Shown here: positions 4,032-20,358 of the stretch, piece by piece
Layout: each line of letters begins with the position of its first letter
Numbering within the stretch: the first letter of the stretch is position 1
Source: a virus
Strand: one strand, 5' to 3'
IMG/VR virus record: IMGVR_UViG_3300035698_012026
Span: 1 to 20,655 of that record
Length of the DNA: 20,655 bases
Made by a program: the position numbers and the translations under genes
Notes under the pieces: generated by a model
Seen by the model: only the letters and a program-made list of their open reading frames with translations
Told to the model about the DNA's origin: nothing
Database searches by the model: none

Positions 4032-4089
4032 ATTATGCGTGATACGGGACGCATACGCTCCATAATTCGTCCGCGCACCGCGAATTAAT
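4032..4089 (-). promoter_or_regulatory. Promoter-like element copy D (NusG-like gene)
   Basis: Read leftward: ATTAAT (4089-4084), GGACGA starting at 4072, GAGC, then ATCACGCATAAT ending at 4032. The interval from ATTAAT to GGACGA is 17 and from GGACGA to the last box is 29, exactly as in the copies at 5757, 5963 and 20301. The -10-like CATAAT ends six bases before the ATG at 4025. The upstream end overlaps the last five bases of the nuclease gene. Promoter function is inferred from conservation and position. Confidence 0.65.
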
Positions 4090-4507
4090 TTGGCCTCCCC
4101 CGGTTATCTTCATTCGCCGAGATCAGATCCCACAACAGATTGATGTTGAGTTCCCCCTGAGCAACATTGAATTCATGCGCAGCACAGAGATCTTCATTCT
4201 CGTCAATCCCAATGGCCCAACACCTCACCCGGTCTTCATCAATTGATAGAACTCTTGGAGAGGCAGCCAAGTTGAATGCGTTGCGGGCATATCGCCGTTG
4301 GGACGGTCGCAATGAATCCATGGGCCATCTTCCACGTTTTAGTTCGAACGGCCAGTATCCCCCGGTGGAGTGCCGAAATATGAAGCAATCCGGTTGCCCA
4401 GATGGCACGCCAACTGTCGGTTCGGTCCATATCACCGAGCATTCCGGAAATGCAAGAGTATTCAATAGCAGAGAGCGTAGCACTTTCTCTTTGACTGGGC
4501 GAGGCAT
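4085..4507 (-). CDS. Small PD-(D/E)XK nuclease, VRR-NUC-like
   Basis: The 140-residue protein carries a PD-(D/E)XK core: GVPSGQPDCFIF with D40, then FELKRG with E55 and K57, followed by SQRRYAR with Q70 on the next helix. This is the layout of VRR-NUC and related phage resolvase-like nucleases, which cut branched or damaged DNA. The start at ATG 4507 is supported by AAGGA six bases upstream. It is the first gene of the leftward unit, next to the repeat-rich intergenic region and behind promoter-like element E. A role in processing replication intermediates before packaging would fit; the substrate cannot be read from sequence. The C-terminal 60 residues show no recognised motif. Confidence 0.75.
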   Translation of the reverse strand: MPRPVKEKVLRSLLLNTLAFPECSVIWTEPTVGVPSGQPDCFIFRHSTGGYWPFELKRGRWPMDSLRPSQRRYARNAFNLAASPRVLSIDEDRVRCWAIGIDENEDLCAAHEFNVAQGELNINLLWDLISANEDNRGRPN

Positions 4508-4546
4508 CCGTATTCCTTACTTGAGCAGACCACATTATCCCAGACA

Positions 4547-4603
4547 ATTAGGCGCCATTATGGGCGCATTCGCCAACTATTCGTCCCATGTTAGCCGATT
4601 AAG
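4547..4603 (-). promoter_or_regulatory. Promoter-like element copy E (nuclease gene)
   Basis: Read leftward: CTTAAT (4603-4598), GGACGA starting at 4586 (interval 17, as in other copies), GGCG, then ATGGCGCCTAAT from 4558 to 4547. The second interval is 28 instead of 29. The expected transcription start near 4540 leaves a 33-base leader before ATG 4507. Confidence 0.55.
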
Positions 4604-4673
4604 ACCGGATCAAGCCCATGAATGCGTCCATAAGCAGATGAATGCGCCGCCATCGAGTCGGCACGCACGGCGC

Positions 4674-5013
4674 AACCCACTGAATTCGCTGGACAATCCC
4701 CCGGCCGACTCGACGGCGTCCCATTGACTCGACGACCGGAATTCCATCGAGTCGGGTAAAAGACCATTGAATTCAGTGACTTACCTCTTATTGACTCGAC
4801 GACTCGATGATTATTGACAATTAATGAATTAATGACCCCGGAACGGCCATTATTGGCATTCCCCGGGGGGCGTTGGAACCCAGATCCATCGAGTCGTCGA
4901 GTCAACGGCCCTTAACCCCATGTAATCGCTCAACAATAGCCGACTCGATGACCAATTCCATCGAGTCGGCATCGAGTCGGCTCGGCCGTAACCCACTGAA
5001 TTCGCTGGACAAT
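4674..5013 (+). repeat. 24-bp perfect direct repeat at two sites
   Basis: The 24 bases at 4674-4697, beginning AACCCACTGAATTCGC, recur exactly at 4990-5013. Both copies follow an ATCGAGTCGGC iteron and are followed by a CCCGGCC block, so a module of roughly 65 bp is duplicated 316 bp apart. Confidence 0.85.
4791..4905. repeat. 19-bp perfect inverted repeat around an AT-rich core
   Basis: TTGACTCGACGACTCGATG at 4791-4809 is the exact reverse complement of 4887-4905. The 77 bases between begin with an AT-rich block holding a tandem AATTAATG (4819-4834) and continue into CCCCGG/CCGGGG and GCCA/TGGC stems. Each arm contains two iterons. This is the symmetry centre of the intergenic region. Confidence 0.85.
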
Positions 5014-5094
5014 TCCCGGCCCGGCTCGAGCCGCCATCGAGTCGGTCACGAGCCGCCCTCACGGAATTCGCATTCGCCATGCTTCCGCAGCCCG

Positions 5095-5152
5095 GATAAT
5101 TACACACCTCAGGGCGATTTATAGGGCGAATGCGCCTGGCTCGGGGGAAGAT
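5095..5152 (+). promoter_or_regulatory. Weak promoter-like element copy F (gene at 5234)
   Basis: GGGCGATTTATAGGGC at 5112-5127 resembles the GGACGATTTTTAGCGC of other copies. GATAAT stands 17 bases upstream in register. The last box, GGGGGAAGAT region at 5141-5152, is a poor match. It is the only candidate promoter seen for the gene at 5234. Confidence 0.3.
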
Positions 5153-5207
5153 AGTAAGGCCAACCCTGACCAGACCCCGTACGCGCTCTGGGGTCTTCCC
5201 CGGAGCC
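5138..5207 (+). other. Nested or competing hairpins before the gene at 5234
   Basis: GGCTC plus GGGGAAGA (5138-5151) can pair with TCTTCCCC plus GAGCC (5194-5207), broken by one G-G mismatch. Inside, AGACCCC (5172-5178) pairs with GGGGTCT (5190-5196). The two stems share bases 5194-5196, so they partly exclude each other. There is no U-tract. Confidence 0.45.
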
Positions 5208-5233
5208 GCCACCCAAAACTTGAATAGGCGAGC

Positions 5234-5662
5234 ATGATGCTTAACTCACCGGGTCGTATCACCCTCATTGGCGATGTGCTTACTAAGATGCGCAAGCAGA
5301 TCTGCGATAAATTGAGAATTCGCAATGGCCGACTCTATCTTGGACTTGAGTTCTTCTTAGTATTCCCCGATGGAGAGGGCGGAACCGAGTATGTTACTTC
5401 CAATCTCCACGAAGCTTGTGCCGGCTCAAGTCGCCAAAAGTTTCGGAAGTATTGCATTACGGAAATCAAGCATGGAATAGAGATTGACATCATGCATTCA
5501 CGATCTCTTCTACGGATTGAGGCCTCCGCTTGCGATGTATTCGGGAAAGACCGCATCTTAACTCGCAATCGCACGCTCCTGGCTACTTTCCACTACGAAT
5601 TGACCGATGAAGCGCCATTTTTACTTGAATACGGCAAAAAGCTGGTTCCGCAGACGTCTTAG
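5234..5662 (+). CDS. Hypothetical protein, first rightward gene
   Basis: I do not recognise this 142-residue protein. It has mixed alpha/beta character with a hydrophobic stretch GRLYLGLEFFLVFP near residues 32-45, no transmembrane segment and three cysteines. Two ATGs are adjacent (5234 and 5237), and AGGCGAG just upstream is a weak ribosome site. It is the first gene to the right of the candidate origin and ends one base before a strong GC hairpin, so it appears to be a single-gene unit. That position would suit an early regulator or an origin-binding protein, but no helix-turn-helix is evident. Confidence 0.7.
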   Translation: MMLNSPGRITLIGDVLTKMRKQICDKLRIRNGRLYLGLEFFLVFPDGEGGTEYVTSNLHEACAGSSRQKFRKYCITEIKHGIEIDIMHSRSLLRIEASACDVFGKDRILTRNRTLLATFHYELTDEAPFLLEYGKKLVPQTS

Positions 5663-5663
5663 C

Positions 5664-5694
5664 GCCGACCGCGCCGGGCAACCGCGCGGTCGGC
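5664..5694 (+). terminator. GC hairpin after the gene at 5234, no U-tract
   Basis: GCCGACCGCG (5664-5673) pairs perfectly with CGCGGTCGGC (5685-5694) across an 11-base loop. It starts right after the TAG. No run of T follows, so a canonical intrinsic terminator is not proven. Confidence 0.5.
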
Positions 5695-5718
5695 CCGGTC
5701 CATTGACACCAATGCGTC

Positions 5719-5753
5719 GCCCCCCGGCTCCGCCAAAACCACAGCCGGGGGGC
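5719..5753 (+). terminator. CCCCCCGG-type hairpin, no U-tract
   Basis: GCCCCCCGGCT (5719-5729) pairs perfectly with AGCCGGGGGGC (5743-5753) across a 13-base loop. A second strong hairpin follows that at 5664. Its core recurs at about 6541 and 12703. Confidence 0.5.
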
Positions 5754-5756
5754 TAA

Positions 5757-5814
5757 ATTAATCTAGAGCTACCGGACGATTCCTAGCGCTTTTCTAAAGC
5801 GGATGGCGCATAAT
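5757..5814 (+). promoter_or_regulatory. Promoter-like element copy A (no gene directly downstream)
   Basis: ATTAATCTAGAG (5757-5768), GGACGATTCCTAGCGC from 5774 and ATGGCGCATAAT (5803-5814) match copies B and C with identical spacing. No start codon follows at the usual distance. The segment TTTTTATGGGCG, found five bases after copy C, appears 77 bases after copy A at 5889. Confidence 0.6.
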
Positions 5815-5962
5815 AGCAATTTGTTTTGCTGCCAGCTAGGGATACCCCACAAATAGCAGCATTAAAAGTAGTCAATTGAGCCTCCAAGTTTTTATGGGCG
5901 CGCGTAAGGGCCGAATGGAACCTCGCCCTAAGGCCTGTTATAATGGCGCTCCGGGTATGCAA
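5815..5962 (+). other. Non-coding segment between elements A and B
   Basis: No convincing gene is seen. The segment could be a short transcript driven by element A. It holds a CTGC/GCAG pairing around GGGATACCC, and AGGGC/GCCCT arms near 5907-5930. An extended -10 sequence TGTTATAAT (TATAAT at 5939-5944) suggests a separate sigma70-type start. A 32-codon frame from ATG 5894 to TAG 5992 has no ribosome site. Confidence 0.3.
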
Positions 5963-6020
5963 ATTAATTTCGCGGGCACGGACGATTTTTAGTGCCTTTG
6001 CTTCAAATATGGTGCATACT
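5963..6020 (+). promoter_or_regulatory. Promoter-like element copy B (alanine-rich operon)
   Basis: ATTAAT (5963-5968), GGACGATTTTTAGTGC from 5980 and ATGGTGCATACT (6009-6020) keep the 17 and 29 intervals. The expected start near 6026 falls on ATGGGC, which can pair with GTCCAT at 6037-6042 to form a hairpin at the very 5' end of the transcript. The gene at 6061 follows. Confidence 0.65.
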
Positions 6021-6060
6021 AGTTCTATGGGCAACCCGTCCATCTAAAGAGAGGCCTACC

Positions 6061-6192
6061 ATGCCCGATTCCACCAGCGCCGCCGACGCCGCCGCCATCA
6101 AGCGCGCCGACGCCGCCGCCATCAAGCGCGCCCTCGCCTCCTCCCGTGCCGCCATCGCCGCGGTCTCGGCGGCACGGGAGGCTCTCGAATGA
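6061..6192 (+). CDS. Small alanine-rich protein with tandem octapeptide
   Basis: This 43-residue frame starts at ATG 6061 behind GAGAGG and ends in an ATGA overlap with the next gene. It is about 45 percent alanine. The octapeptide DAAAIKRA is repeated twice in tandem and is encoded by a perfect 24-bp DNA repeat (6085-6108, 6109-6132). The whole protein is predicted helical, slightly basic in the middle. Its last residues SAAREAL resemble the repeat of the next gene. The last quarter of the gene forms a 14-bp perfect hairpin (6140-6153 with 6168-6181). No function is recognised. A coding role is supported by the ribosome site, the ATGA junction and promoter element B upstream. Confidence 0.6.
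   Translation: MPDSTSAADAAAIKRADAAAIKRALASSRAAIAAVSAAREALE
6140..6181 (+). other. 14-bp perfect hairpin inside the gene at 6061
   Basis: CCTCCCGTGCCGCC (6140-6153) is the reverse complement of 6168-6181, with a 14-base loop. It ends seven bases before the ATG at 6189, so it could control translation of that gene or attenuate transcription. Confidence 0.6.
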
Positions 6193-6509
6193 CCGATGAA
6201 CTCGGCTCCATCATCGCCGCCGCCCGAGCCAACTATTGCGCGCGGCGCGCAACCACCGAAGCGGAGGAATCCAAATTCCAAGATGCGCGCGGCGCTCTCG
6301 ACGCCGCCCATGACGCCTACTGCGCCGCTTCCACCAGCACCAGCACCAGCGCCGCGCGCGTAGGCGTAGGTACCGCCCGAGCCAACTATTGCGCGGCGGA
6401 ATCATCAGCGCTGGCCGCGCGGGAGGCTCTCTCCGAGGCATTCGAAGTCTACTGCGCCGCGGACGACTTCGTACTCAATAATATCGACCTCCAAGACATC
6501 CAAGACTAG
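6189..6509 (+). CDS. Alanine-rich protein with Tyr-Cys-Ala repeats
   Basis: This is a 106-residue helical, alanine-rich protein of unknown function. The pattern A-x3-YCAA appears at ARANYCAR, AHDAYCAA, ARANYCAA and AFEVYCAA, each preceded by a DAR-AL type segment. The unit DARGALDAAHDAYCAA also has close relatives in the protein from 6581. A 23-bp DNA repeat (6220-6242 and 6373-6395, in frame, 153 bases apart) encodes two of the YC motifs, so part of the gene arose by internal duplication. A Ser-Thr linker near residues 48-54 separates two halves. Translation is coupled to the gene at 6061 through ATGA. Confidence 0.7.
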   Translation: MTDELGSIIAAARANYCARRATTEAEESKFQDARGALDAAHDAYCAASTSTSTSAARVGVGTARANYCAAESSALAAREALSEAFEVYCAADDFVLNNIDLQDIQD

Positions 6510-6562
6510 GACGATACGTCGTCTTTAACTCTTAATCCTCCCCCCGGTTAGCGCCGGGGGAG
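6510..6562 (+). terminator. Two hairpins between alanine-rich genes
   Basis: GACGA-TACG-TCGTC (6510-6523) is followed by TTTAACTCTT, the closest thing to a U-tract in this window. A second hairpin pairs CCCCCGG (6541-6547) with CCGGGGG (6554-6560) across a six-base loop. The second shares its core with those at 5719 and 12702. Confidence 0.5.
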
Positions 6563-6580
6563 CCATATTGGAGAATAAAA

Positions 6581-6793
6581 ATGGCTGACTGCCCAATAGC
6601 GCATCGCGCCCATGTGGCTTACTGCGTCGCGGCCCTCGGGGATGCCGCCCGCGTCCTCAACACCGCCCATGCTTACTACTCCGCCGCCGACGGAGCGGGA
6701 ACCGTAGTCTTCGAGGATGCCCGCGCCACCCTCATTGAAGCTTACGATGCCTATTGCGCCGCGGTAATCCGCGCTAAAGAGGCCACCAAATGA
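6581..6793 (+). CDS. Alanine-rich Tyr-Cys-Ala repeat protein
   Basis: This 70-residue protein is a paralogue of the one at 6189. Its repeats are AHVAYCVAA, DAARVLNTAHAYYSAA and DARATLIEAYDAYCAA; the last matches DARGALDAAHDAYCAA of the neighbour. Cysteine is replaced by serine in the middle copy. GGAG lies eight bases before the ATG. The gene ends in an ATGA overlap with the next one. It is probably an all-helical protein with Tyr and Cys on one face. Function unknown. Confidence 0.7.
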   Translation: MADCPIAHRAHVAYCVAALGDAARVLNTAHAYYSAADGAGTVVFEDARATLIEAYDAYCAAVIRAKEATK

Positions 6794-7095
6794 CCGATGA
6801 AGAACTGGCCAGCCCGATGTACAAGACGCGCATGTTCGCGCGCCAATTGTCCGATGTGAGCAATGAAGCGAATGCGGCCTATTCACGGGCGGTGATCGCA
6901 GTTCACCATGCTTGGATCGACTTCGACCGCACCGGTAACATGGATCACCGCTTCATTCTAGAGGATGCTCGCGAGGTTGCTTCCGAATGCAAGAAGAACA
7001 AGTCTGAAGCCAACCACAAGATGCTCCAAGCAGTGGCCAATGCTGTCCACGAGCGCGACATCCACTACAAGCCCAAGTACAAAGGGCAAGAGTAA
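6790..7095 (+). CDS. Hypothetical helical protein, distant member of the repeat family
   Basis: 101 residues, start coupled to the previous gene through ATGA. The segments ANAAYSRAV and FILEDAREVASECKK echo VFEDARATLIEAYDAYC of the protein from 6581, so this looks like a diverged paralogue, less alanine-rich and more charged, with a lysine-rich C-terminus. No catalytic motif is seen. Single Cys near residue 65. Function unknown. Confidence 0.75.
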   Translation: MTDEELASPMYKTRMFARQLSDVSNEANAAYSRAVIAVHHAWIDFDRTGNMDHRFILEDAREVASECKKNKSEANHKMLQAVANAVHERDIHYKPKYKGQE

Positions 7096-7152
7096 CTCCG
7101 CCCTAGCGAATATACCCGCATCTCTACTTAAGATCCATCAAGGATATGACCA

Positions 7153-7374
7153 ATGGCCAGCCCGAACCACACCCACCTCATGAATGAGGCGCAGCGCGCC
7201 AAGATCTTACACATCACCTATGGCCGGCATGCCAAGTCGATCGTATTCGACGTGACCACCAACATGGTCACGGTGGAGTTCCACCGATCTGTTCATCGAA
7301 TTGTGGTCAGCTACAACGGCCGGGTAGTGCGCCACAACAAGACCAACACCAACCGTGACCATTCGCATGCGTAA
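7153..7374 (+). CDS. Small basic hypothetical protein
   Basis: 73 residues, behind AAGGA nine to ten bases upstream of ATG 7153. It is rich in histidine (nine) and arginine, with a beta-type core KSIVFDVTTNMVTVEFH and IVVSYNGRVV. The length and hydrophobic pattern would allow a small beta-sheet domain such as the KTSC type, but I cannot assign it. The end overlaps the next gene by a few bases. Confidence 0.7.
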   Translation: MASPNHTHLMNEAQRAKILHITYGRHAKSIVFDVTTNMVTVEFHRSVHRIVVSYNGRVVRHNKTNTNRDHSHA

Positions 7375-7711
7375 GCCGTTTCAGTTGTCTTTGCCTCTTG
7401 GTAACACCAACCCGGAATCGCTATCTTCTTGTTGGATAGTCTTCGGCGGGTACGCTCTCCACGAGTATTCGTGGGGTTCGGGGGGCCAATGCATCTTCTG
7501 CGGAGCCGATTGTAGTGATCAATTGGCCGGCACTCACTGGTTCTACGACGAGTACGATGCTCCCGCTCATCTTAGGAGCCCATACGGCCCAGCTGTTGCA
7601 AGAGAGTGCCGTATATGCGGCCAATCGGAGGCCGACGGCGACCTCGAAGACATCTGCCCCGGCGACACTTCCGTCGTCTATACTGATCAACCCGGAGACA
7701 GCCATGACTGA
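7367..7711 (+). CDS. Hypothetical protein with two Cys-pair zinc-binding sites
   Basis: 114 residues from ATG 7367; GTG 7355 in the same frame would add four residues. Neither start has a clear ribosome site, and both lie inside the end of the previous gene. CIFCGADC near residues 42-49 and CRICG near 82-86 are spaced as two zinc knuckles, with a further Cys near 97. This suggests a small zinc-binding protein of nucleic acid or protein contact type. It overlaps the next gene by eight bases. Confidence 0.65.
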   Translation: MRKPFQLSLPLGNTNPESLSSCWIVFGGYALHEYSWGSGGQCIFCGADCSDQLAGTHWFYDEYDAPAHLRSPYGPAVARECRICGQSEADGDLEDICPGDTSVVYTDQPGDSHD

Positions 7712-8339
7712 AGAGCGGCCGATTACTCAAGAGATGATGATCCAGATCTATGAGGATGCTTACGGGGAGAAGTTGAGCGAAGAGAGCGTCACTATAGTGG
7801 CGCTTTATGATGAATACAAGTTTGACTTGTGTGCGAACCACTGGCGGGTGAAGGCCAGCACTGCGAAGATTGCTCGCATGGAAGCATTGATTGCCCATGA
7901 GAAGAAATCAATGCTTGTTCCCATCAAGTTCGTCCGGGCATTGGGCAATCGCCACTGCGACAGGCAGTATTCCCGAGCGCACTTCTTGGCTCGCGGAGTA
8001 TTCCCGTCCAACAAGCAGATGGAATACATCGCCTATATGGAGACTGGTGCCGTCGAATTGGTTACCAAGATGATCTATTCTCCGCCGCCGGTGCCGGCTC
8101 CAGCCGGTTCGCCAACCGGAGCCGGAGACACACCTCTGGTTGGCTCTACGGACCAGCCTAGCGCGCGCCCACCCGCTCCGCCGGGCATGGTCAAGCGGAC
8201 CGCGTTGGAGCCTCTTCAGGCCCTCATCGCCGAAACCGCATATTGCTCGAACTGCGGCGACGTCCTCGTAGAACCCGAAGACCGGGGGCACTGCCAATGG
8301 TGCGGGGGAGAGTACAGCACCGAACTTACCTACGAATAG
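7704..8339 (+). CDS. Hypothetical protein with C-terminal zinc ribbon
   Basis: 211 residues from ATG 7704, behind GGAGA five to six bases upstream. The frame is open upstream to 7515, but that part lies inside the previous gene and is unsupported. The N-terminal 120 residues are helical and charged; a proline-rich linker (PPPVPAPAG to ARPPAPPG) spans about residues 132-170. The end holds CSNCG and CQWCGG, a four-cysteine zinc ribbon. This fits an adaptor or DNA-binding protein. I do not recognise the N-terminal domain. Confidence 0.75.
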   Translation: MTEERPITQEMMIQIYEDAYGEKLSEESVTIVALYDEYKFDLCANHWRVKASTAKIARMEALIAHEKKSMLVPIKFVRALGNRHCDRQYSRAHFLARGVFPSNKQMEYIAYMETGAVELVTKMIYSPPPVPAPAGSPTGAGDTPLVGSTDQPSARPPAPPGMVKRTALEPLQALIAETAYCSNCGDVLVEPEDRGHCQWCGGEYSTELTYE

Positions 8340-8497
8340 GACGGAATATTCGTCCGCATTGCTCAATTAATACGGGCGAATGCGGTCCACATGGCGCAAT
8401 GTTAGGCCTCGCTCCGCCGTTGTTACCATTCCGCATCTCGTTGGTAACTTCGGCGGAGCGAGCCAGCCCCATCAGTGGGCTATAAACGGAGAACAAA
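8340..8497 (+). promoter_or_regulatory. Structured intergenic leader
   Basis: The 158 bases hold an imperfect palindrome around GAATATTC (8338-8354), CCGCATT/AATGCGG arms (8355-8361 with 8379-8385), and a very long hairpin: CTCGCTCCGCCG (8408-8419) with 8451-8462, and, after a 2x2 internal loop, GTTACCA (8422-8428) with TGGTAAC (8442-8448). A small AGCCC/GGGCT stem follows. The arrangement suggests a terminator followed by a leader for the gene at 8498. Confidence 0.55.
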
Positions 8498-8761
8498 ATG
8501 CTTAGATACTCTCTCTTGCCGGAATCCGCGCGCCCATTTGTTGGAGCCGACGCATTTTCCGAGCATATGGCCCAGTCCCCCGGCCACTTAATTGTCCCCA
8601 TTGCGAATTGTTATGTTGGTGGCTACGTATTGCTTTCATGCATCGTAGTGCCTTCACTAGTCTTGGCGCGAGACAAGGCAGACTATGTCTGCAGAGCGCA
8701 AGCAATTCTCGGGGGTGGCAACATGAACCTCCTCCGGAATACATCCCCCAAAGCCATCTGA
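8498..8761 (+). CDS. Hypothetical small protein, possibly membrane-associated
   Basis: 87 residues from ATG 8498, with ACGGAGAA six bases upstream, a good ribosome site. A hydrophobic stretch GGYVLLSCIVVPSLVLA at about residues 41-57 could be one membrane segment. It ends ten bases before the next ATG, as in an operon. No family is recognised. A chance frame cannot be excluded, but the ribosome site and spacing favour a real gene. Confidence 0.5.
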   Translation: MLRYSLLPESARPFVGADAFSEHMAQSPGHLIVPIANCYVGGYVLLSCIVVPSLVLARDKADYVCRAQAILGGGNMNLLRNTSPKAI

Positions 8762-8771
8762 GGATTCAAAC

Positions 8772-9746
8772 ATGGCCCGAGAGACTCGCAATACTTCACG
8801 TTCCGCGGAGAAGACACAAGATCCCGTGGTTCGTGATGAACTTCCGCCCGAAGACGCCCAATTGGGGGTCGCATCCCCCGAAGAGGACGGCAAGTTGGTC
8901 CTCAAGATGCCGGAGAATGGCCTCGTCGAAGATGGCGATGACGATTTCTTCGGTGGCGATGCTTCCGAAATCGAGTCTGGGTACGGCGATGCGGACTCTG
9001 GCGATGTTGCGCTCCCCCGGTTGACCATTCTCCAAGGTCTCAGCCCGCAAGTCGACCGCAATGCTGCTGAATACATCGATGGTTCCAAGCAAGGAGACAT
9101 CATCAACACCGCGACCGGCCGAATTGTCGATCCGGCAACTGTCGTATTCGCGGCATACGAGCGTCGCTATGTGGAATGGTCGCCGCGTCAGAAGGATAAG
9201 GCATGCCCGTTCTCGGATATGCCGAAGCCGTATGGGGAGGGCCTCATCCAAGACCATGGTACCGATGGCTCAATACTTGATGAATGCCGCCGGTGGGAGG
9301 AAAACGGCTCCTATTGGACCAAGTCCGGCAATGAACTTGTTCCGACCGCGACGTGGTACGGTGTGATGTTGGATACGATGTCGCCGTTCTTCATCGGAAT
9401 GGGCAAGACCCAGTTCACCGCTTCGAAGAAGATCATGTCTGCGGTCCGCGAAGAGAAGTTGCGCCGCGGCGGTACTCTCCGAGTTGCTCCGATCTTCTGG
9501 CGCTCTTGGACGATGTCCGGCACTCTTAAGATCCGCGATGACAACAAGTGGTACGTCTGGGGTGCGAAGCCCGGTGTTCTACTCAAAGATCACCCGGATG
9601 GCAAGTCGATGCTGGGCGTCATCAAAGATCTTCAAGAGTCCATCAAGACCCACACCGTCAAAGTCGACATGAATGAGGCAGATTCCGAATCTGTTCGCGG
9701 TTCCGGCTATGGCGCTGGCTCCGGGGGTGACGACTCCGCGATGTGA
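8772..9746 (+). CDS. Probable ssDNA-binding-like replication protein
   Basis: 324 residues, ATG behind GAGGA. The core from about 82 to 290, with LPRLTILQGLSPQV, GDIINTATG, VVFAAYERRYVEWSPR and WYGVMLDTMSPFFIGMGKTQFTASKKI, resembles phage proteins annotated as ssDNA-binding or recombination-associated. I recall that resemblance and could not test it. The N-terminus is acidic and disordered (DGDDDFFGGD), and the C-terminus is glycine-rich with an acidic tip GGDDSAM, like SSB tails. Position ahead of the replication genes agrees. A hairpin follows the stop. Confidence 0.55.
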   Translation: MARETRNTSRSAEKTQDPVVRDELPPEDAQLGVASPEEDGKLVLKMPENGLVEDGDDDFFGGDASEIESGYGDADSGDVALPRLTILQGLSPQVDRNAAEYIDGSKQGDIINTATGRIVDPATVVFAAYERRYVEWSPRQKDKACPFSDMPKPYGEGLIQDHGTDGSILDECRRWEENGSYWTKSGNELVPTATWYGVMLDTMSPFFIGMGKTQFTASKKIMSAVREEKLRRGGTLRVAPIFWRSWTMSGTLKIRDDNKWYVWGAKPGVLLKDHPDGKSMLGVIKDLQESIKTHTVKVDMNEADSESVRGSGYGAGSGGDDSAM

Positions 9747-9754
9747 ATACTACG

Positions 9755-9778
9755 AACCGGGCAGAACAGTGCCCGGTT
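9755..9778 (+). terminator. 9-bp hairpin between the genes at 8772 and 9803
   Basis: AACCGGGCA (9755-9763) pairs perfectly with TGCCCGGTT (9770-9778) across a six-base loop; CCACTTTC follows. It may be a weak terminator that lowers downstream expression, or an mRNA 3'-end stabiliser. Confidence 0.5.
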
Positions 9779-9802
9779 CCACTTTCAATCATGGGTGCTA
9801 AC

Positions 9803-10540
9803 ATGACTTCAAGTAATGACGACTTCTTTCTTGATGCCGCTGATGAAGATGCATCGAGCAACATAGCGAGTAGCTCCGGTGCGATGTCGGAAGCAGCTCG
9901 ACTTGGCAAGTTCGCCATCGAATTGACCGAAAATATCTCGGTTATCGAAGCACAACTTGCCGCGGAGAAGAAGGCTCTCAATAAGATACTTATCTCTGAC
10001 CTCCCCGCGGTGCTGAAGGAGGCTGGGACAGACCAATGGCGCGACCCGGATACTGGCATTGTCATCGAACTCAAGATGAATGTCGATGCCAAGATGCCAA
10101 AAGACCAAGATAAGCGGGTCGAATTCTTCGAGTCTCTGAAGCCAACTGGCGTATTCGAGATCTTGAAGCAAGAGTTCACCGTTCTCTTCGCGCCGGGTGA
10201 CCAGCGCATCAGTGCGGTGCGCGCGATACTCTTTCCCAATGAACCGAATGATCTCGAGCCGGAAGTTCTTCAGCGAGTTGCCGAACTGTGCGACTCTCTT
10301 GGACTCAACAACATGCCCGGCGAGCAAAAGTTGGGCGTCAATGCTTCAACTTTCAAGTCATGGCTCAAAAAGATCATCGAATCAAATGAACAGTGCTATG
10401 CGGATGGTTCGGATGACCTTTTGGACTTGGATGAAGACGCCCCCGTGATGCGTCCGGCAACCGATATCATTCGGGATGCCGGCATCTGGTTCGGCGAGCA
10501 GGCATTCATCAAGATTCCGCGTAAGAAGTCCGGGGGGTGA
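9803..10540 (+). CDS. Conserved phage-type hypothetical protein
   Basis: 245 residues from ATG 9803; alternatives are ATG 9791 and GTG 9743, the latter running through the hairpin. Residues about 30-75 form a long helix (IELTENISVIEAQLAAEKKALNKI region) likely to be coiled coil, and the middle ends with GVFEILKQEFTVLF. A C-terminal part ends with DIIRDAGIWFGEQAFIKIPRKK. It follows the ssDNA-binding-like gene, so a role in replication or recombination is likely, but I cannot name it. Confidence 0.75.
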   Translation: MTSSNDDFFLDAADEDASSNIASSSGAMSEAARLGKFAIELTENISVIEAQLAAEKKALNKILISDLPAVLKEAGTDQWRDPDTGIVIELKMNVDAKMPKDQDKRVEFFESLKPTGVFEILKQEFTVLFAPGDQRISAVRAILFPNEPNDLEPEVLQRVAELCDSLGLNNMPGEQKLGVNASTFKSWLKKIIESNEQCYADGSDDLLDLDEDAPVMRPATDIIRDAGIWFGEQAFIKIPRKKSGG

Positions 10541-10546
10541 TGCGGC

Positions 10547-10954
10547 ATGGGCATTAAGATCAAAACCGGACACCTATACAGAGATGCCTCTGGATCCGTG
10601 CATGGCCCCATTCATCGGCGCTCTGATGCCAACACATTCCCGGCAATTGAGCATACCATGGCTAGCGTAACGGACCTCGCCGAGTACCCGTTCGGCGCGG
10701 ATTCATCCAAGTGGAGAAGTTGGACGGCTGATGGCCGAGTATTCACATGTCCGAATGTCCCAAGCGGGTCGGACTTGGTTGAAGAGTTCATCACCCCGAC
10801 TCAAGATGGGCCGCTTCCATACAACATCGACCATGCGCGCAAGTTGTTGGAAGCAGATCTGGCCGAACTCAACAAGGCGATAGCGAGTATCGACCTCAAG
10901 ATGGCACAGATATCCCAATTGATCAATGCTATTCACAAGGGAGTGAAGAAATGA
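10547..10954 (+). CDS. Hypothetical protein with C-terminal coiled coil
   Basis: 135 residues, ATG six bases after the previous stop and behind GGGGGG. The N-terminal half has short beta-prone segments (GHLYRDASGSVHGPI, WTADGRVFTCPN). The last 45 residues (LLEADLAELNKAIASIDLKMAQISQLI region) form a clear amphipathic coiled coil. It overlaps the flavoprotein gene by ATGA. Function unknown. Confidence 0.75.
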   Translation: MGIKIKTGHLYRDASGSVHGPIHRRSDANTFPAIEHTMASVTDLAEYPFGADSSKWRSWTADGRVFTCPNVPSGSDLVEEFITPTQDGPLPYNIDHARKLLEADLAELNKAIASIDLKMAQISQLINAIHKGVKK

Positions 10955-12701: not shown

Positions 12702-12725
12702 TCCCCCCGGTGCAAGCCGGGGGGA
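12702..12725 (+). terminator. CCCCCCGG-type hairpin after the ThyX-like gene
   Basis: TCCCCCCGG (12702-12710) pairs perfectly with CCGGGGGGA (12717-12725) across a six-base loop, six bases after the stop. The core equals those at 5719 and 6541. There is no U-tract. Confidence 0.55.
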
Positions 12726-12758
12726 TTCACTTTGGCGCAACACCGTAGGGACTTAGGG

Positions 12759-13169: not shown

Positions 13170-13170
13170 C

Positions 13171-13629: not shown

Positions 13630-13641
13630 GGAGCGGCCACT

Positions 13642-14004
13642 ATGACTTCAGCATGGCATGAAGACGTCCGAAGAGGCATGGAAGAGAAGGAGAAGAGCAT
13701 GGGCAATCCCGATGAACGCACACCGGATGAAGTACTCTCAGACCTCGCGAGCCTCTTTGCGCAGAGGAATGCGACATATGGCGCGGACTACAAGTTGTTC
13801 GGGCCGCGTATGAGAGCATTGTTCCCCAATGGGTTGGAATTGAGCACGGAAGATGACTTCCAGCGCTTCGGTATGTTGGTATTCATCGTCTCGAAGCTTG
13901 GCCGTTACTGCAACTCTTTCGAGTCCGGGGGGCATGCAGACTCTCTTGACGACCTCGCGGTGTACTCGGCGATGTTGAGTACCGTCGACCGGGGGATGCT
14001 ATGA
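13642..14004 (+). CDS. DUF6378-like phage protein
   Basis: 120 residues behind AAGGAG. The core VLSDLASLFAQRNATYGADYKLFGPRMRALFP, then KLGRYCNSF and HADSLDDLAVYSAML, matches a small helical phage family that I recall as DUF6378. Its layout (a Tyr-Gly loop and an HADS-x2-D-x2-VY motif) is reminiscent of dUTPase or MazG-like all-alpha NTP enzymes, so a nucleotide-related role is plausible but unproven. It ends in an ATGA overlap with the exonuclease gene. Confidence 0.65.
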   Translation: MTSAWHEDVRRGMEEKEKSMGNPDERTPDEVLSDLASLFAQRNATYGADYKLFGPRMRALFPNGLELSTEDDFQRFGMLVFIVSKLGRYCNSFESGGHADSLDDLAVYSAMLSTVDRGML

Positions 14005-14555
14005 TCATATTCGACACAGAGACAACCGACTTGGTCAAGTCGGTTGACTTGCCTCTGAAAGTATTGCCTCGTGTTATCGAGCTATACGCGATCAGAGTCA
14101 ACAACGATACTTTCGCGATAGAAGAAGAGTTTGACCACTTGTTCTATCCCGACCAGAAGGTCTCCGACCTTATTACCAAGATTACTTCCATAACCAATGA
14201 CATGTTGCGCGGCAAGCCCAAGTTCTCGACTCTTGTTGAAGCATTCAATGCGATGACAGACGGCGATGACTACGGCGTGGGGCACAATGTGTGCTTCGAC
14301 AGAGACATGTTGCTTATCGAGAACCGCTTTATTCGGGCTTCGGGGGCATCCAATACTCAGATCCGGATCCCCCCGAAGTTGATCTGCACGGTTGAGCAGA
14401 CCGAACACTTGTGCGGGCGTCGTCTTAACTTGCGGGACTTGCACCAGCACTTGTTCGGCAAGTCATTCGATGCTGCTCACCGCGCGCGGGCCGACGTTAT
14501 GGCAACTTACAGATGTACTGTTGAGTTGATCGAGCGCGGAATCATCAAGCTATAG
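14001..14555 (+). CDS. DEDDh 3'-5' exonuclease (DnaQ-like proofreader)
   Basis: 184 residues. Exo I is MIIFDTETTDL with D5 and E7, Exo II VGHNVCFDRDML with D100, and Exo III AHRARADVMATY with H160 and D165, so all four acidic residues and the general-base His are present. Such domains remove mismatched 3' ends. The nearby family C polymerase lacks its own metal-binding PHP motif, so this protein probably supplies proofreading. It has only the catalytic domain; no clamp-binding or polymerase-binding tail is apparent. Confidence 0.85.
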   Translation: MIIFDTETTDLVKSVDLPLKVLPRVIELYAIRVNNDTFAIEEEFDHLFYPDQKVSDLITKITSITNDMLRGKPKFSTLVEAFNAMTDGDDYGVGHNVCFDRDMLLIENRFIRASGASNTQIRIPPKLICTVEQTEHLCGRRLNLRDLHQHLFGKSFDAAHRARADVMATYRCTVELIERGIIKL

Positions 14556-14566
14556 TCGGGTAAAAC

Positions 14567-15211
14567 ATGATTAACGATCAAGAGACAACACAACCCATCG
14601 GAACCGACAGTAACGTCTGGACGAATTCAAAAGGATGGATCTCTGCACTTAACCCGAGGACCGAAGACATCGGGATTGGCGACATCGTGTCTGGGCTTAG
14701 TTGTATTCCCCGGTGGTCTGGGCAACTGTTCGGTGGTCCAAGCCCGGTATGGTGGACTGTTGGGCACCATACTCTGAAGTTGCTTGAGACGGCTGTCCGG
14801 AATGGAGAACCGCTGCCACTTCTACGCGAGATCTTCATGCATGATGCTGCGGAGGCCTACGTCGGCGACATGACCCGTGGTATCAAGAAGAACTTGCCCA
14901 AGTACATTGAGATCGAATTGGGTTTTGCTCGGGCAATATCCTCGAAGTTCGGCACTCCTTCTGTTATGAGTGATGAATGCAGAGAGTACGATGAGTATGG
15001 CTTCTCAATAGAAGCTACCGAATTCATGCCGGCTGGCACATTCTCCAACATCCTCATCCCGCGGCGCATGGTCAACTCGGCGCGGTCATGCAAAGCCATG
15101 GCACGAGACATCCCGAACCCATACAGAGTCTATGAAGAACTGATGGAATACTACCATCGCCTCTTCGTATTGGGCGACAGTTACCCAATGGCCTCCGAAA
15201 GACAAGTATAG
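14567..15211 (+). CDS. YfbR-like HD-domain nucleotide phosphohydrolase
   Basis: 214 residues with the YfbR pattern: DIVSGLSCIPRWSGQ, then VGHHTLKL (H67, H68), FMHDAAEAYVGDM (H92, D93, E96) and IKKNLP. YfbR removes phosphate from dNMPs; phage relatives include the dATP triphosphohydrolase DatZ of 2-aminoadenine phages. Which nucleotide this one attacks cannot be read here. The gene lies eleven bases after the exonuclease stop with only GGGTAA as ribosome site. A 53-base gap follows, with a GGGC/GCCC mini hairpin. Confidence 0.8.
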   Translation: MINDQETTQPIGTDSNVWTNSKGWISALNPRTEDIGIGDIVSGLSCIPRWSGQLFGGPSPVWWTVGHHTLKLLETAVRNGEPLPLLREIFMHDAAEAYVGDMTRGIKKNLPKYIEIELGFARAISSKFGTPSVMSDECREYDEYGFSIEATEFMPAGTFSNILIPRRMVNSARSCKAMARDIPNPYRVYEELMEYYHRLFVLGDSYPMASERQV

Positions 15212-15264
15212 CGCGTCGCATAAGTGGGCATGTCGCCCTAAAAACAAGCATGGAGGACTTCTAG

Positions 15265-18003
15265 ATGAGGAATAGAACGGGTTTCGGATTCGGGTATTCA
15301 TACGGGTTCATTCCCGATGTCCTCGAACGGGTCGAAACGGACTATGCTTTGATCTCAGACCGCGCTTCTACTTTCGGTTTTCATCCTTGGAAGCTTGAAT
15401 GCGAGAGAATTGGCAAGAGACCCATCTATGGCGTAGAATTGGCAGTAACCGATTCCATCAATGCGCCCAAGCCGTCCAAGTGCTACGTCACTCTTGTGCC
15501 CCGAACCGATGTATCTATCCTCAATAGGGCATTCTCTAGGGCCACAAGCCAGTTCAAGTACGAGCCACTACTTACGTACCATGACTTGAATGCCATGGGC
15601 GATGACGTCAACATATTACTCGGCCGCAACATACAAGCAGAACACCTCCGAGAGAGAGAGTACTGGCTGGCCGATACTCCGTCAACCCCCCTCCATATGC
15701 GCACACTTGCTGCAGACCGGGGGTGGCAATTGTTTGCGTCTAGCGACAACAACTTCCCCGCTGAAGAAGATCGCCATCCGTACTTATTAACCATGGGGCG
15801 GAGCGGCCAAACCCAGACTTGGCCGCAACACATCATGTCCGATGCGGAGATGCGCGCGGGGGGCGTTCCGGAGTCTTCATTTCAGGGCCGAGACCGGCTC
15901 GCCGCGCAATCTTCCGGCGCGCTCTTGCCGTCACACACATTCGCTCCGAAGGACGTCCTTAGCGTCGAGGAATGGTGCCGCCAAGGCGCAGTCGCTCTGG
16001 ATGTGGACCTCTCCGACCCCGCGTACGCGAGCCGTCTGGAGCGAGAGCTAAGCGTGATCAATCAGAAGGGCTATCAGGGCTATTTTCAGATCATCGCGGA
16101 CCTCTGCCAGTTCGCCCGCGGCAAGATGTTTGTGGGACCGGGCCGTGGCTCCGCTTGTGGCTCTCTCGTATGTTACTTGATGAACATTACATCTGTTGAC
16201 CCGCTTATTCACGATCTTCTATTCGAGCGCTTCTTGGACATCGGCCGAACCGACCTTCCGGACATCGACATTGACTTCAGCGATGAGCGGCGTTACATGG
16301 TCTTCGACTACCTGAAAGAGAAGTACGGTGCGGATCATGTGTGTAAGTTGGGAACGGTCGCATTCTATAGGTCACGTTCACTTGTAAAAGACATCGTTCA
16401 CTTGTTGGGTGTCCCGCCGTTTCGGTTCGAGTCTGTAATTGCAGAGAACGAACAGATCGCGAACAAGACAAGCCTAAGCGATACTATGCGTAGATCGAAT
16501 GCGGGACAGCAACTCCTCTGCGAAGAGCCGGGTCTTGAAGTACTTGGCCGAATTGACGGTCACCCCCGGCACATGTCTACTCATGCTTCGGGCATCGTGG
16601 TCACCGAGTTGCCAGTATCGGACCATCTAGCTGTCGATTCGCGGTCCGAAACGGCCATGATCGATAGAACAGATTCCGAACGTCAGAACATCTTGAAGAT
16701 CGACGTGCTCGGTCTTCGGCAGATGTCTGTGTTGGAGGACTGCATTGACATGATCGGTCGCCCCCGGTCGTGGCTCGAGAAAGTACCGCTCGACGATCAA
16801 GCAGCATTCGATGTGTTGAATGCCGGCAAGTTCAGCGGAGTCTTCCAATTCAATGGTGGCTCTCTGCAATCTCTTGCTAAGGGATTCCATATCGATGAAT
16901 TCGAGGACCTCGTTGCTATCACCTCACTCGCTCGGCCCGGTCCAATGGGCTCTGGCGGTGCTGCCCACTGGGTGCGAATTCGCCGGGGGGATGAAAAGGT
17001 CCACTATCGCCACCCCGTGTTCGAGCCAATACTCAAGACCACTCGTGGGATCGTGATCTACCAAGAACAAGTCATGATGGCTGGTCTGAAAATCGGAGAT
17101 ATGGACTGGGCAACTGTCACCAAGCTTCGAAAAGTGGTCCAGTACTTCACCGGCCCGGCAGAGATGAACAAGTTCAGAGAACAGTTCATGATTGGCGCCA
17201 TTGCTAAGGGCGTTACAGAGAAAGATTCGAGCGAATTCTGGGATGAGTTGCTCGCATACGGATCCTATGCTTTCAATAGGTCCCATGCCGTGGCATACTC
17301 AATGATCTCTTATTGGTGTTGCTATCTCAAGGCCCACCATCCGGTCGAATACGCCGCGGCAATGCTCAATCACGAGATTAAGCCGGAGCGGCAACTCATA
17401 ATGCTCCGAGAGATGCGCGATGAGGGGATCGAATACACACCGGTCGATCTCGAACACTCACGTATGAAGTGGCAAGTTGCTAATGGTCGCCTAGTGGGGC
17501 CAATTACCATGGCTAAGGGACTTGGCCGCAAGACAGCACAAGCCTACGTCAATGCAAGAGATGCTGGCCTTGACCTCCCTAAGCGTGCTCTGGCACTACT
17601 CAATAGTCCGACTACGCCTATTGATAGCTTGAGTCCCATCGAAGATGCCATATCCCGCAACCATCCTTCACTAGCGAATATCAACATATTCTCAATTCCT
17701 ACTCCAATTGGCCAATTGGGAGAGAAGAAGATCGAGGGCGCGCTAGTTGCGGGGCTGATGACTGTGGCTAAGTCACGACCCGATACTAAGTGGGGCGGGA
17801 CCAAGATGACCGGTCTTATATCAGATGACACCGGTGAGGTTCGCTTCTTCATCAATAGCAAGAAATTCGATGCTATTGGTAAGAAGATGCTCGATGCGGG
17901 ACGTGTTGGCGAGACATTGTGGGCTGTAAAAGGCACACTTGCTGATGGCGGCGGCATGATATTCGTCGAAATGGTAAGAGCACTTGGGAGCATTAAGAAA
18001 TGA
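15265..18003 (+). CDS. Family C DNA polymerase (DnaE-like alpha subunit)
   Basis: 912 residues against about 1160 in E. coli DnaE. The active site is clear: VGPGRGSACGSLV at 290-302, LPDIDIDF with D335 and D337, and ILKIDVLGL with D480. MAKGLGRKTA near the C-terminus is the helix-hairpin-helix, and GALVAGLMTVAKSRPDTKWG begins the OB fold. The protein ends after the OB fold, without a tau-binding domain. The N-terminal PHP region is shortened and lacks the HxH motif (GYSYGF is found instead), so it should have no PHP nuclease. GGAGG precedes the ATG. Confidence 0.95.
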   Translation: MRNRTGFGFGYSYGFIPDVLERVETDYALISDRASTFGFHPWKLECERIGKRPIYGVELAVTDSINAPKPSKCYVTLVPRTDVSILNRAFSRATSQFKYEPLLTYHDLNAMGDDVNILLGRNIQAEHLREREYWLADTPSTPLHMRTLAADRGWQLFASSDNNFPAEEDRHPYLLTMGRSGQTQTWPQHIMSDAEMRAGGVPESSFQGRDRLAAQSSGALLPSHTFAPKDVLSVEEWCRQGAVALDVDLSDPAYASRLERELSVINQKGYQGYFQIIADLCQFARGKMFVGPGRGSACGSLVCYLMNITSVDPLIHDLLFERFLDIGRTDLPDIDIDFSDERRYMVFDYLKEKYGADHVCKLGTVAFYRSRSLVKDIVHLLGVPPFRFESVIAENEQIANKTSLSDTMRRSNAGQQLLCEEPGLEVLGRIDGHPRHMSTHASGIVVTELPVSDHLAVDSRSETAMIDRTDSERQNILKIDVLGLRQMSVLEDCIDMIGRPRSWLEKVPLDDQAAFDVLNAGKFSGVFQFNGGSLQSLAKGFHIDEFEDLVAITSLARPGPMGSGGAAHWVRIRRGDEKVHYRHPVFEPILKTTRGIVIYQEQVMMAGLKIGDMDWATVTKLRKVVQYFTGPAEMNKFREQFMIGAIAKGVTEKDSSEFWDELLAYGSYAFNRSHAVAYSMISYWCCYLKAHHPVEYAAAMLNHEIKPERQLIMLREMRDEGIEYTPVDLEHSRMKWQVANGRLVGPITMAKGLGRKTAQAYVNARDAGLDLPKRALALLNSPTTPIDSLSPIEDAISRNHPSLANINIFSIPTPIGQLGEKKIEGALVAGLMTVAKSRPDTKWGGTKMTGLISDDTGEVRFFINSKKFDAIGKKMLDAGRVGETLWAVKGTLADGGGMIFVEMVRALGSIKK

Positions 18004-20153
18004 GTGCTTCGCCTCTTGAGAACGTGAGTGCCATTAAGTCGTATCTAGACCGAATTGGCGCTCAGTTCACCAGCATCTTCCGAGCAGTTGTATCGGCTAA
18101 GGTGTCGGGCTATGAAAAAGATGTGGCTGTTATACGTTTTACTAGGGATGGAACAGTACGCGCTGAGGGCGGATACCCCCCGACGCCTCAAGAGGCTGAG
18201 GCTATTCAAGTTGCTATGGCCGGCATGGACTTGCCGAAGCCACTCCGGTTGGCGGGGGAGGACAAGTCTAATCTTCCCGAGGCTGTTGTCAATGCAAGAG
18301 GTGAGGACGTCTTTACTTTCCGTTCTAGAACCAATCAGATAATAATGTACCAAGTCAGAGTTGATTTGGACAACGGAGACAAGAAATATGTCCCATGGAC
18401 TTATTGGTCTGATGGTGTATGGCGAAGAGCCGAGCCGGATGGTGCTCTTCCCATATACGGAATGGAACTTGCAGTAGATGCATCGCGCATCTTCATACAT
18501 GAGGGCGCCAAAGCCGCAAAAGCCGCACAAGAGATATCTCGGGATACTGGTCACCCGTGGAGCGAATTCATGTCAACTGGTGTGCACGTCGGTTGGATTG
18601 GTGGAGTTCACCAAGTTGCGCGCGGAGATTGGGATCAACTTCGGCGCGCTTCTCCGGATGATGTGATAATAGTGCCAGATAATGACGCTCCGGGCGCTCG
18701 AGTTGTTCCGAACATATCTCGTCACTTCACTTGCCGGACGTCTGTTGTTATATGGGATGGTGATTGGCCCAGCCGGTTCGATCTTGCCGATGCAATGCCC
18801 AAGAAGTTCTACAAGAATGGGCTTTGGATTGGCCCGAATATGCAAGATCTACTTCACCCCGCGGAATGGTGTACGGATCAATTCCCGAATCCCGAGGGGC
18901 GCGGTCGTCCTATAGTTGTCCCGAGAGATGCCTTCTTGGATAGATGGCATAGAATTGAGCGCACTAAGTCTTTCTGCCCAAAAGACAACCCAATTCGAGT
19001 ATTGGATAGGGAGAACTTCAATGCCTATATGAAGCCCTACTCTCATGTCTCTGATGTTGCTGGGCTATTCATGGGTGTTGTCTCAACCCCGATAGAACAG
19101 CAGACCTTCTCCCCCGACACCAATAAGAGCATAATTCGAGTCGGCAACCGAATTCATCTCAATCAATACACAGACATGCGAGTTAAGCCCGCTGCCGGCG
19201 ACACCAAGATCTTCCATGAGTTCATTGAATACTTGGTTCCCGGACAAGTTGACCGCGATAACTTCATGCGATGGATACGAACACTCTATGCCTGCCCGGC
19301 TATTCGAATGGGATATGGCATCTTGGCTCTCAGCGAACAACAGGGCGTGGGCAAGTCAACTATTGGCACCATACTTTCCCACATGATAGGCAAAGAGCAA
19401 GTATCTTTTCCGGGAGATGCTATGATCCAATCGGACTTCAATGGTTGGATAGTGAATAAGCGCTTGATCGTTGTGAACGAGATCTATGCCGGCCAGAACT
19501 GGCGCACATACAACAGCCTAAAGTCCATGGTAACCGACCCAGAAATTGATGCTAATGTGAAGCATCAAGCTACATACCAGACCGCCAATTGGGCGCACTT
19601 CTACTGCTGTTCCAATTCGATGGAAGCAATGCGGATCGAAGACAGTGATAGGCGTTGGTTCGTGCCCAAGATAACCGAACTATTGTGGCCGAAACCCAAG
19701 TATGACCAATTGTATGCTTGGATGGCGGACGGAGGACTTAACGCTATCGCTAACGAGTTCGTGAATAGTTCGGATTACGAAGCAGCCGGGGGGCGCGCTC
19801 CGGGTTCAATAGCCAAGAGCGAACTTGTTGAGAACAGTCGGCCCCCCGAGCATGAATTCGTGGTCTCTCTTATGGATAAGCTTCGGTCTGGGCAAGCTAT
19901 GGACATCTCGGATGCTTGGGTGTTCATCAAAGATATAGCGCGGTCTCCGTATTTGACTACGCAACGTGTGTCGCACATGGCCAAGACCGCCGGATTTGGA
20001 GTATCCAAGCAGAAGAGAGTGCTCGGCCGTAGAAGGAGGCTACTATTCGTGACTCCCGAAGAGATGGAGTTGGCCATGGATGGTGACAATGACTTGCTGG
20101 CTAGTAGTATAGTGTCACCCGAATCAGTGTGGGCAGACAGTACTCCCATGTAA
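18000..20153 (+). CDS. Toprim / SF3-type primase-helicase
   Basis: 717 residues, coupled to the polymerase by ATGA. A Toprim domain spans about 150-250: RIFIHEGAKAAKAA with E168, and DVIIVPDNDAPG with D227 and D229. A D5/DUF5906-type helicase follows: Walker A SEQQGVGKSTIG at 445-456, Walker B LIVVNEIYAG at 489-498, then CCSNSMEAMRIEDSDRRWFV at about 536-554, the sensor and arginine-finger region. No zinc-binding or AEP catalytic primase domain is obvious in the first 150 residues. It likely unwinds the fork and may prime. It is the last gene of the operon. Confidence 0.85.
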   Translation: MSASPLENVSAIKSYLDRIGAQFTSIFRAVVSAKVSGYEKDVAVIRFTRDGTVRAEGGYPPTPQEAEAIQVAMAGMDLPKPLRLAGEDKSNLPEAVVNARGEDVFTFRSRTNQIIMYQVRVDLDNGDKKYVPWTYWSDGVWRRAEPDGALPIYGMELAVDASRIFIHEGAKAAKAAQEISRDTGHPWSEFMSTGVHVGWIGGVHQVARGDWDQLRRASPDDVIIVPDNDAPGARVVPNISRHFTCRTSVVIWDGDWPSRFDLADAMPKKFYKNGLWIGPNMQDLLHPAEWCTDQFPNPEGRGRPIVVPRDAFLDRWHRIERTKSFCPKDNPIRVLDRENFNAYMKPYSHVSDVAGLFMGVVSTPIEQQTFSPDTNKSIIRVGNRIHLNQYTDMRVKPAAGDTKIFHEFIEYLVPGQVDRDNFMRWIRTLYACPAIRMGYGILALSEQQGVGKSTIGTILSHMIGKEQVSFPGDAMIQSDFNGWIVNKRLIVVNEIYAGQNWRTYNSLKSMVTDPEIDANVKHQATYQTANWAHFYCCSNSMEAMRIEDSDRRWFVPKITELLWPKPKYDQLYAWMADGGLNAIANEFVNSSDYEAAGGRAPGSIAKSELVENSRPPEHEFVVSLMDKLRSGQAMDISDAWVFIKDIARSPYLTTQRVSHMAKTAGFGVSKQKRVLGRRRRLLFVTPEEMELAMDGDNDLLASSIVSPESVWADSTPM

Positions 20154-20156
20154 GTT

Positions 20157-20196
20157 GCTCCGCCCGCCCGCGCAATTGGCGATCTGCGGGCGGAGC
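20157..20196 (+). terminator. 11-bp hairpin at the end of the replication operon
   Basis: GCTCCGCCCGC (20157-20167) pairs perfectly with GCGGGCGGAGC (20186-20196) across an 18-base loop. It starts four bases after the primase-helicase stop. CTATATGG follows, so there is no U-tract. Confidence 0.6.
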
Positions 20197-20300
20197 CTAT
20201 ATGGCCCATGGAGAGCCTCTTGCATTGGCTCTTCGGCGATCTCCGGACGCGGGCCTAGGTTCCCGGTTGCGCCAATTAGAGAGCCGCCCGTGACCACTAG

Positions 20301-20358
20301 ATTAATCTAGAGTTCCCGGACGATTTTTAGCGCAATCCGCCGGCACATGGCGCATGCT
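20301..20358 (+). promoter_or_regulatory. Promoter-like element copy C (right-end alanine-rich gene)
   Basis: ATTAATCTAGAG (20301-20312) equals that of copy A; GGACGATTTTTAGCGC follows from 20318 and ATGGCGCATGCT from 20347 to 20358, with the standard 17 and 29 intervals. The expected start falls on the A of ATGGGC at 20365, whose six bases pair with GCCCAT at 20377-20382. Confidence 0.7.

Follow-up and report, generated by a model that had tools for sequence, protein, structure and literature searches.

A repeated promoter-like element at operon starts of an uncultured phage and its core in related phages

The repeated element and the genes around it

The DNA analysed here (the window) is a linear phage record of 20,655 bp, probably a fragment, listed as IMGVR_UViG_3300035698_012026 in IMG/VR, and the phage is known from environmental DNA alone. 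Its leftward genes code for the terminase large and small subunits, a NusG-like protein and a Holliday-junction-resolvase-like protein (weak match). The rightward genes code for small Ala-rich open reading frames (ORFs), Pam3 gp34-like and gp33-like proteins, ThyX, an exonuclease, an HD-type hydrolase, a DnaE-type polymerase and a primase/helicase; names without a family match were read from the sequence. Among these genes lies a promoter-like element in five copies, A to E, all of them present at the positions and on the strands reported by the first-pass annotation. They are listed with a sixth copy and a seventh site that has the core only.

Copy A, 4032..4089, minus strand: ATTAAT 4089-4084, GGACGA 4072-4067, -35-like GAGCGTATGC 4060-4051, -10 CATAAT 4037-4032, predicted transcription start (+1) 4025
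Copy B, 4547..4603, minus strand: CTTAAT 4603-4598, GGACGA 4586-4581, AATAGTT then TGGCGAATGC 4575-4566, -10 CCTAAT 4552-4547, predicted +1 4540
Weak sixth copy, 5095..5152, plus strand: GATAAT 5095-5100, GGGCGA 5112-5117, GGGCGAATGC 5124-5133, -10-like GAAGAT 5147-5152; upstream of the ORF 5234-5662
Copy C, 5757..5814, plus strand: ATTAAT, GGACGA 5774-5779, GCGCTT 5786, -10 CATAAT 5809-5814, predicted +1 5821; no long gene directly after
Copy D, 5963..6020, plus strand: ATTAAT, GGACGA 5980-5985, GTGCCTTTGC 5992-6001, -10 CATACT 6015-6020, predicted +1 6027
Core-only seventh site, 8374..8402, plus strand: GGGCGAATGC 8374-8383, ATGGCG then -10-like CAATGT 8397-8402, predicted +1 8409; starts the operon with the Pam3 gp34-like gene
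Copy E, 20301..20358, plus strand: ATTAAT, GGACGA 20318-20323, GCGCAATCCG 20330, -10 CATGCT 20353-20358, predicted +1 20365; after the primase gene

The word pair TTAAT-N11-GGACGA occurs five times in 20.7 kb, while 300 first-order Markov windows gave a mean of 0.01 and a maximum of 1, and no other word pair in the window reaches five occurrences. All five copies carry a CATAAT-like box at fixed spacing. ATTAAT and GNGC, described as common to the whole set, are found in four copies, the minus-strand copy at 4603 reading CTTAAT and GGCG instead. In this same copy B the interval of 28 instead of 29 is real and arises because one base is missing before TGC, which places the shift between GGACGA and the -35-like box. 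From A to E the -10 position reads CATAAT, CCTAAT, CATAAT, CATACT and CATGCT, so the box named as shared is exact in A and C and varied in the others. These TATAAT-like hexamers lie 17 bp from the -35 position, where the copies have GAGCGT, TGGCGA, GCGCTT, GTGCCT and GCGCAA and no TTGACA-like hexamer; a sigma70 consensus scan of 3400-9000 picked up none of the copies there. The sixth copy had been called weak, but it keeps the exact 17 and 12 spacings and is stronger than claimed.

Each site has a definite place relative to the genes. Copy A stands before the NusG-like gene, B before the resolvase gene, and the 5124 site, C and D at the first rightward genes; 8374 opens the gp34 operon and E follows the primase. 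One copy had been said to lack a gene directly after it, which is true of the copy at 5757, while the copy at 4089-4032 directly precedes the NusG-like gene. No strong site was found before the window dnaE. One repeated promoter signal appears to mark the starts of most operons of this phage on both strands. The genes most concerned are the following.

NusG-like gene, 3462..4025, minus strand: PF02357 (E 1.2e-7), phrog_6386 transcription antiterminator; after copy A
Holliday-junction-resolvase-like gene, 4085..4507, minus strand: weak match to phrog_5702 (E 0.0054); after copy B
DnaE-type DNA polymerase and primase/helicase genes, 15265..20153, plus strand: queries used for finding relatives

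The resolvase-like gene has an AAGGA ribosome-binding site and homologues in three of the relatives described below (G001, G005 and G012), and it begins 33 nt after the predicted +1 of copy B (4540). The small Ala-rich, low-complexity ORFs on the plus strand (6061-6192, 6189-6509, 6581-6793 and 20401-20655) come after copies D and E, and those at 6189 and 6581 are paralogues, 45% identical. The nearest matches of the terminase, below 50% identity, are in phages of many bacterial groups, tblastn against named phages did not find the NusG-like protein, and no Rfam family was found in the window.

A core shared with related phages

Searches with DnaE and primase yielded the related phage contigs G001 (L032), G002 (L033), G004 (L035), G005 (L036) and G012 (L137), plus two shorter pieces; the DnaE proteins of the five contigs are 54-57% identical to that of the window. 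These five genomes have a recurrent intergenic element of their own, with 21 sites and the consensus AAATA-N4-RTGCTTCTGC-N13-[CG]ATAA. When the sites are aligned on RTGC, A/T at -9 to -5 is followed by RTGCTTCTGC, in which GC and the second TGC are invariant in 21/21, and [C/G]ATA begins 23 nt after R, giving a 17-bp spacer between the -35 and -10 positions. The GNGC of the window copies also lies exactly 23 nt before CATAAT. It had been placed at -35, which agrees with this; the sequence itself appears to be a worn piece of the 10-bp box RTGCTTCTGC. The relatives' set is consistent within itself, all 21 sites being top-ranked in their own genome when that genome was left out. For G012, fetched later, the matrix from the other four genomes gave five sites at 25-36 bits, while the reversed sequence reached 9.4.

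We scored 41,234 window positions with the 21-site matrix, to which the window had contributed nothing. Copy A ranked 1st (18.3 bits), copy D 2nd (17.0), 8374 on the plus strand 3rd (11.3) and 5124 on the plus strand 4th (8.5), and these top-ranked sites fall in the right register. Copies C and B were 20th and 25th, and copy E, whose core is weak, was 216th. Copy B retains AATAGTT like the relatives (AAATAGTT in G012). Judged by box and spacing, the window copies belong to the putative core promoter family of the clade with DnaE at about 55% identity (G001, G002, G004, G005, G012).

The outer boxes have a different distribution. TTAAT-N11-GGACG is absent from all nine relatives searched, and the exact pattern of the full element matched nothing in IMG/VR or in 84,980 genomes. 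A matrix from the window copies, as the first-pass annotation had proposed, found no further site in the loci searched with it, and because of this we took 22 single matches of a looser pattern, all in unrelated contigs, as chance. The predicted promoter combines a core common to the clade (-44 to -7) with an outer module, ATTAAT-N11-GGACGA (at -64 and -47), found solely in this phage. The outer modules are most alike in C and E, the copies with worn cores. The core itself is absent from the primase relatives L003-L009 and from nearly all of about 100 more distant DnaE loci; there is one strong core-like match in a more distant DnaE phage (L104, 6831, minus strand, 23.8 bits, GAAGCTTCTGCGCCACAGCCAGAGCAGACTA). 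A relative of the clade's primase is encoded on no bacterial genome contig searched.

Gene context in the relatives supports a promoter function, as had been proposed. The sites have the same orientation as the gene that directly follows them. Their distance to the start codon picked by our script is 30-85 nt in most cases and 153-242 nt in four. Matching operon starts carry them in several phages: dnaE has a site ahead of it in five relatives, terS in two, and a helix-turn-helix (HTH)-like gene preceding the resolvase gene in three (G001, G005 and G012); G005, like the window, has one ahead of its NusG-like gene, in two pairs the first divergent gene is preceded by one, and in G001 and G002 one follows the primase. 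This recurrence before dnaE, terminase and other operon starts, with orientation following the downstream gene, makes it extremely improbable that the copies are repeats for DNA replication, packaging or recombination, even though B, C and the weak sixth copy adjoin a repeat-rich intergenic region, a possible origin.

That region (4600-5060), upstream of the resolvase module, has dense dispersed short repeats (ATCGAGTCGG) and is rich in GANTC (11 in 500 bp). The corresponding regions, G001 17290-17830 (TNGGTACGA-like) and G005 44300-44700 (GGAGATAATCTGCGACGGATAAA), have repeats that differ in each phage. It is a candidate replication origin or switch region.

Predicted starts and transcript leaders

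With the hexamer taken as -12 to -7, the start would fall 7 nt after it. Such predicted starts land on meaningful positions, in line with the earlier reading of CATAAT as the -10 box. For copy A the predicted +1 is the A of the NusG-like ATG at 4025, and this gene has no Shine-Dalgarno sequence before it, so a leaderless mRNA is predicted. In copy D a small hairpin, ATGGGC-AACCC-GTCCAT, begins at the predicted +1, and in copy E a 7-bp hairpin, ATGGGCG-CTCC-CGCCCAT, does the same. At the 8374 site the predicted +1 opens a perfect stem of 11 bp, a length that 0.2% of random positions reach. Leaderless starts were also considered for D and E and dropped; the ATG of D opens a frame of 6 codons only, and a hairpin at +1 is preferred there. 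Before the gp34 operon a long hairpin, TCGCTCCGCCG...CGGCGGAGCGA, extends from the predicted +1 (8409-8461, plus strand).

Four relatives have TCGTCTCC, and after it a long hairpin, downstream of their site near the gp34 operon; the distance from the start of the box to TCGTCTCC is exactly 41 nt in each:

G001, 16157, minus strand (L052)
G004, 4103, plus strand (L054)
G005, 2814, plus strand (L056)
G012, 43288, minus strand (L143)

The lengths of untranslated leaders elsewhere vary, and the constant distance here fits a fixed start. TCGTCTCC is the reverse complement of GGAGACGA, a frequent ribosome-binding site of these phages, which has 6-14 copies per genome vs 0.3-1.5 expected, most of them just before start codons. 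The transcript with TCGTCTCC may possibly be a small RNA or a leader, in either case pairing with phage ribosome-binding sites.

A rival reading is that the element acts as transcribed RNA, either as a 5' leader hairpin or as an antitermination site for a NusG-like protein, rather than as a promoter. Good folding is seen at several sites in the relatives (z about -4 at G001 270 and G002 8209), and NusG-like proteins are encoded by the window and G005. However, folding is not common to the sites (mean z -1.1 in the relatives and -0.4 in the window; RNA after copy C folds no better than its shuffles), while the sequence columns are invariant, and the ATG of copy A sits 7 nt after CATAAT. Since folding is not shared, we regard an RNA-level element as quite unlikely. 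The NusG-like protein was found in the window and G005 only and not in G001, G004 and G012, which have sites, with the reservation that the records may be fragments; judging from these gene contents it is not the common factor. Both NusG-like genes (3462-4025 in the window, 42746-43273 in G005, both minus strand) lie between resolvase-like and terminase genes. A four-copy repeat of G005, GGCGGAT-N4-ATCCGCC, was rejected as a form of the present element; it makes a hairpin in the leaders of small genes.

The probable reader of the predicted promoters

What reads these sites? The first-pass annotation had seen little likeness to a plain sigma70 promoter, and in all six phages the -35 region indeed departs from TTGACA in the same way. 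The likeness to sigma70 promoters consists of the CATAAT-like -10 box and the 17-bp spacer; the differences are the absent TTGACA-like -35, TGC-N3-TGC strongly conserved in the relatives, and the upstream boxes. A single-subunit, T7-like phage RNA polymerase would account for the run of some 20 contiguous conserved base pairs in the relatives (A/T tract plus RTGCTTCTGC) and for the use of the sites at operon starts. Against it, conservation extends in separate blocks over 58 bp and a CATAAT box stands near the start, and PF00940 (phage RNA polymerase) had no match in the relatives, in a search whose control was silent. Such a polymerase seems very improbable.

A better case can be made for an alternative sigma factor of the host, in which case phages would have copied host promoters of the form RTGCTTCTGC-N13-SATAA, and the core would need no phage activator. 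The two blocks at a sigma-like spacing of 17 bp agree with this, as do the -10 variants GATAAG and CATACA, since some alternative sigma factors use a -10 without the final T. The relatives searched yielded no phage sigma factor. On the other side, the invariant part at -35 covers 10 bp (TGC-N3-TGC), more than sigma region 4 normally reads, and none of the 84,980 genomes contains an exact match to the full five-copy pattern, although the pattern tested included the outer boxes. We hold a host alternative sigma factor to be unlikely. A phage-encoded alternative sigma, another of the earlier candidates, is disfavoured: none of the relatives searched gave a match to sigma region 2 or 4, with positive controls, and region 4 was also not found in the window, which is a fragment.

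The remaining candidate, a phage activator, is favoured. We consider it probable that the multi-subunit RNA polymerase of the host uses the copies as promoters and that their specificity box is of a phage type. The inner half of the element is shared with a small set of related uncultured phages and is unlike the usual bacterial promoter, so all of these phages probably use a protein of their own to redirect the host RNA polymerase. A host sigma factor would read the CATAAT-like -10 hexamer, and the 10-bp box (ancestral RTGCTTCTGC, -35 to -26), 17 bp from the -10, would replace the TTGACA contact. A phage-encoded activator is the most likely protein to bind this box, and the alpha subunits of the polymerase may use the A/T tract just upstream of it (AAATA or AATAGTT, about -44 to -38). 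The outer module (ATTAAT at -64, GGACGA at -47), apparently added in this phage, is probably the site of a second or altered activator and may permit the worn -35 boxes of C and E. In this way the set would start the operons of both strands together.

Several observations weigh against this reading. Copies C and E match the core weakly, and B does so after a one-base shift only. Scores of at least 17 were reached by 5/300 random Markov windows, so for A and D the weight of the match lies in their falling, in register, on positions fixed beforehand. The relatives' -10 box often lacks the final T (GATAAG, CATACA), the chance of a stem at +1 is not small for D (0.13) and E (0.06), and the small HTH-like gene of G001, G005 and G012 was not found in the window, which is a fragment.

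It is useful to compare the element with promoters of cultivated phages. In T4 middle promoters (MotA/AsiA, sigma appropriation) the box wwwTGCTTtA lies 12 +/- 1 bp before the -10 (PMC2988021). They are alike in that a TGCTT-containing phage box takes the place of the -35 and the host -10 is kept (PMC2988021); they differ in distance, which from the matching point is 15 bp in the relatives here. The MotA C-terminal domain PF09158 had no match in six records, with a silent control, and the likeness is at most an analogy.

The closest parallel described so far comes from the Pbunavirus group (PB1-like Pseudomonas phages), distant relatives of the window phage by DnaE and gp34-like homologues. 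In Pbunavirus DL60 (NC_028745; L145) the sequence RTGCTTTACTY precedes a TATAGT/CATAAT box by about 16 nt, and most of these sites are 60-85 nt away from the gene that follows:

DL60 sites, examples, 4120, 9596, 11708, 25935 and 35725, plus strand: RTGCTTTACTY with a TATAGT-like box after; several copies then have ATCGAAACGCGAAAC

One DL60 site lies 79 nt before the gene at 35804; going by position, this is the gene that the gp34-like protein matched in the DL60 GenBank record. The box differs, being TGCTTTACTY in DL60 and TGCTTCTGC in the present clade; the -10 begins about 27 nt after R vs 23 nt, and no ATTAAT/GGACGA module was seen in Pbunavirus. By sequence this is a related layout with a different box and spacing, not the same motif. 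The paper on phage JG024 described conserved intergenic motifs of unclear function, possibly read by a phage sigma factor (PMC3008698), and a text search of the literature by box sequence turned up no publication on the box of the present clade.

The copies look like a real, functional and phage-specific promoter set. A wider proposal, which we offer tentatively and think possible rather than probable, is that the clade encodes a new family of promoter-specificity factors replacing host sigma -35 recognition at most operons (RTGCTTCTGC), and that the window lineage has shifted or supplemented it with ATTAAT-N11-GGACGA, so that promoter rewiring would be in progress.

Promoters of uncultivated phages are rarely defined, as transcript mapping needs a host. 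Here comparison alone gave a shared core, predicted starts and a lineage-specific addition in six phages, and it linked the core to an unexplained motif of cultivated PB1-like phages, where the idea is testable. If it is true, a phage factor diverting the host RNA polymerase awaits discovery, perhaps in PB1-like phages too.

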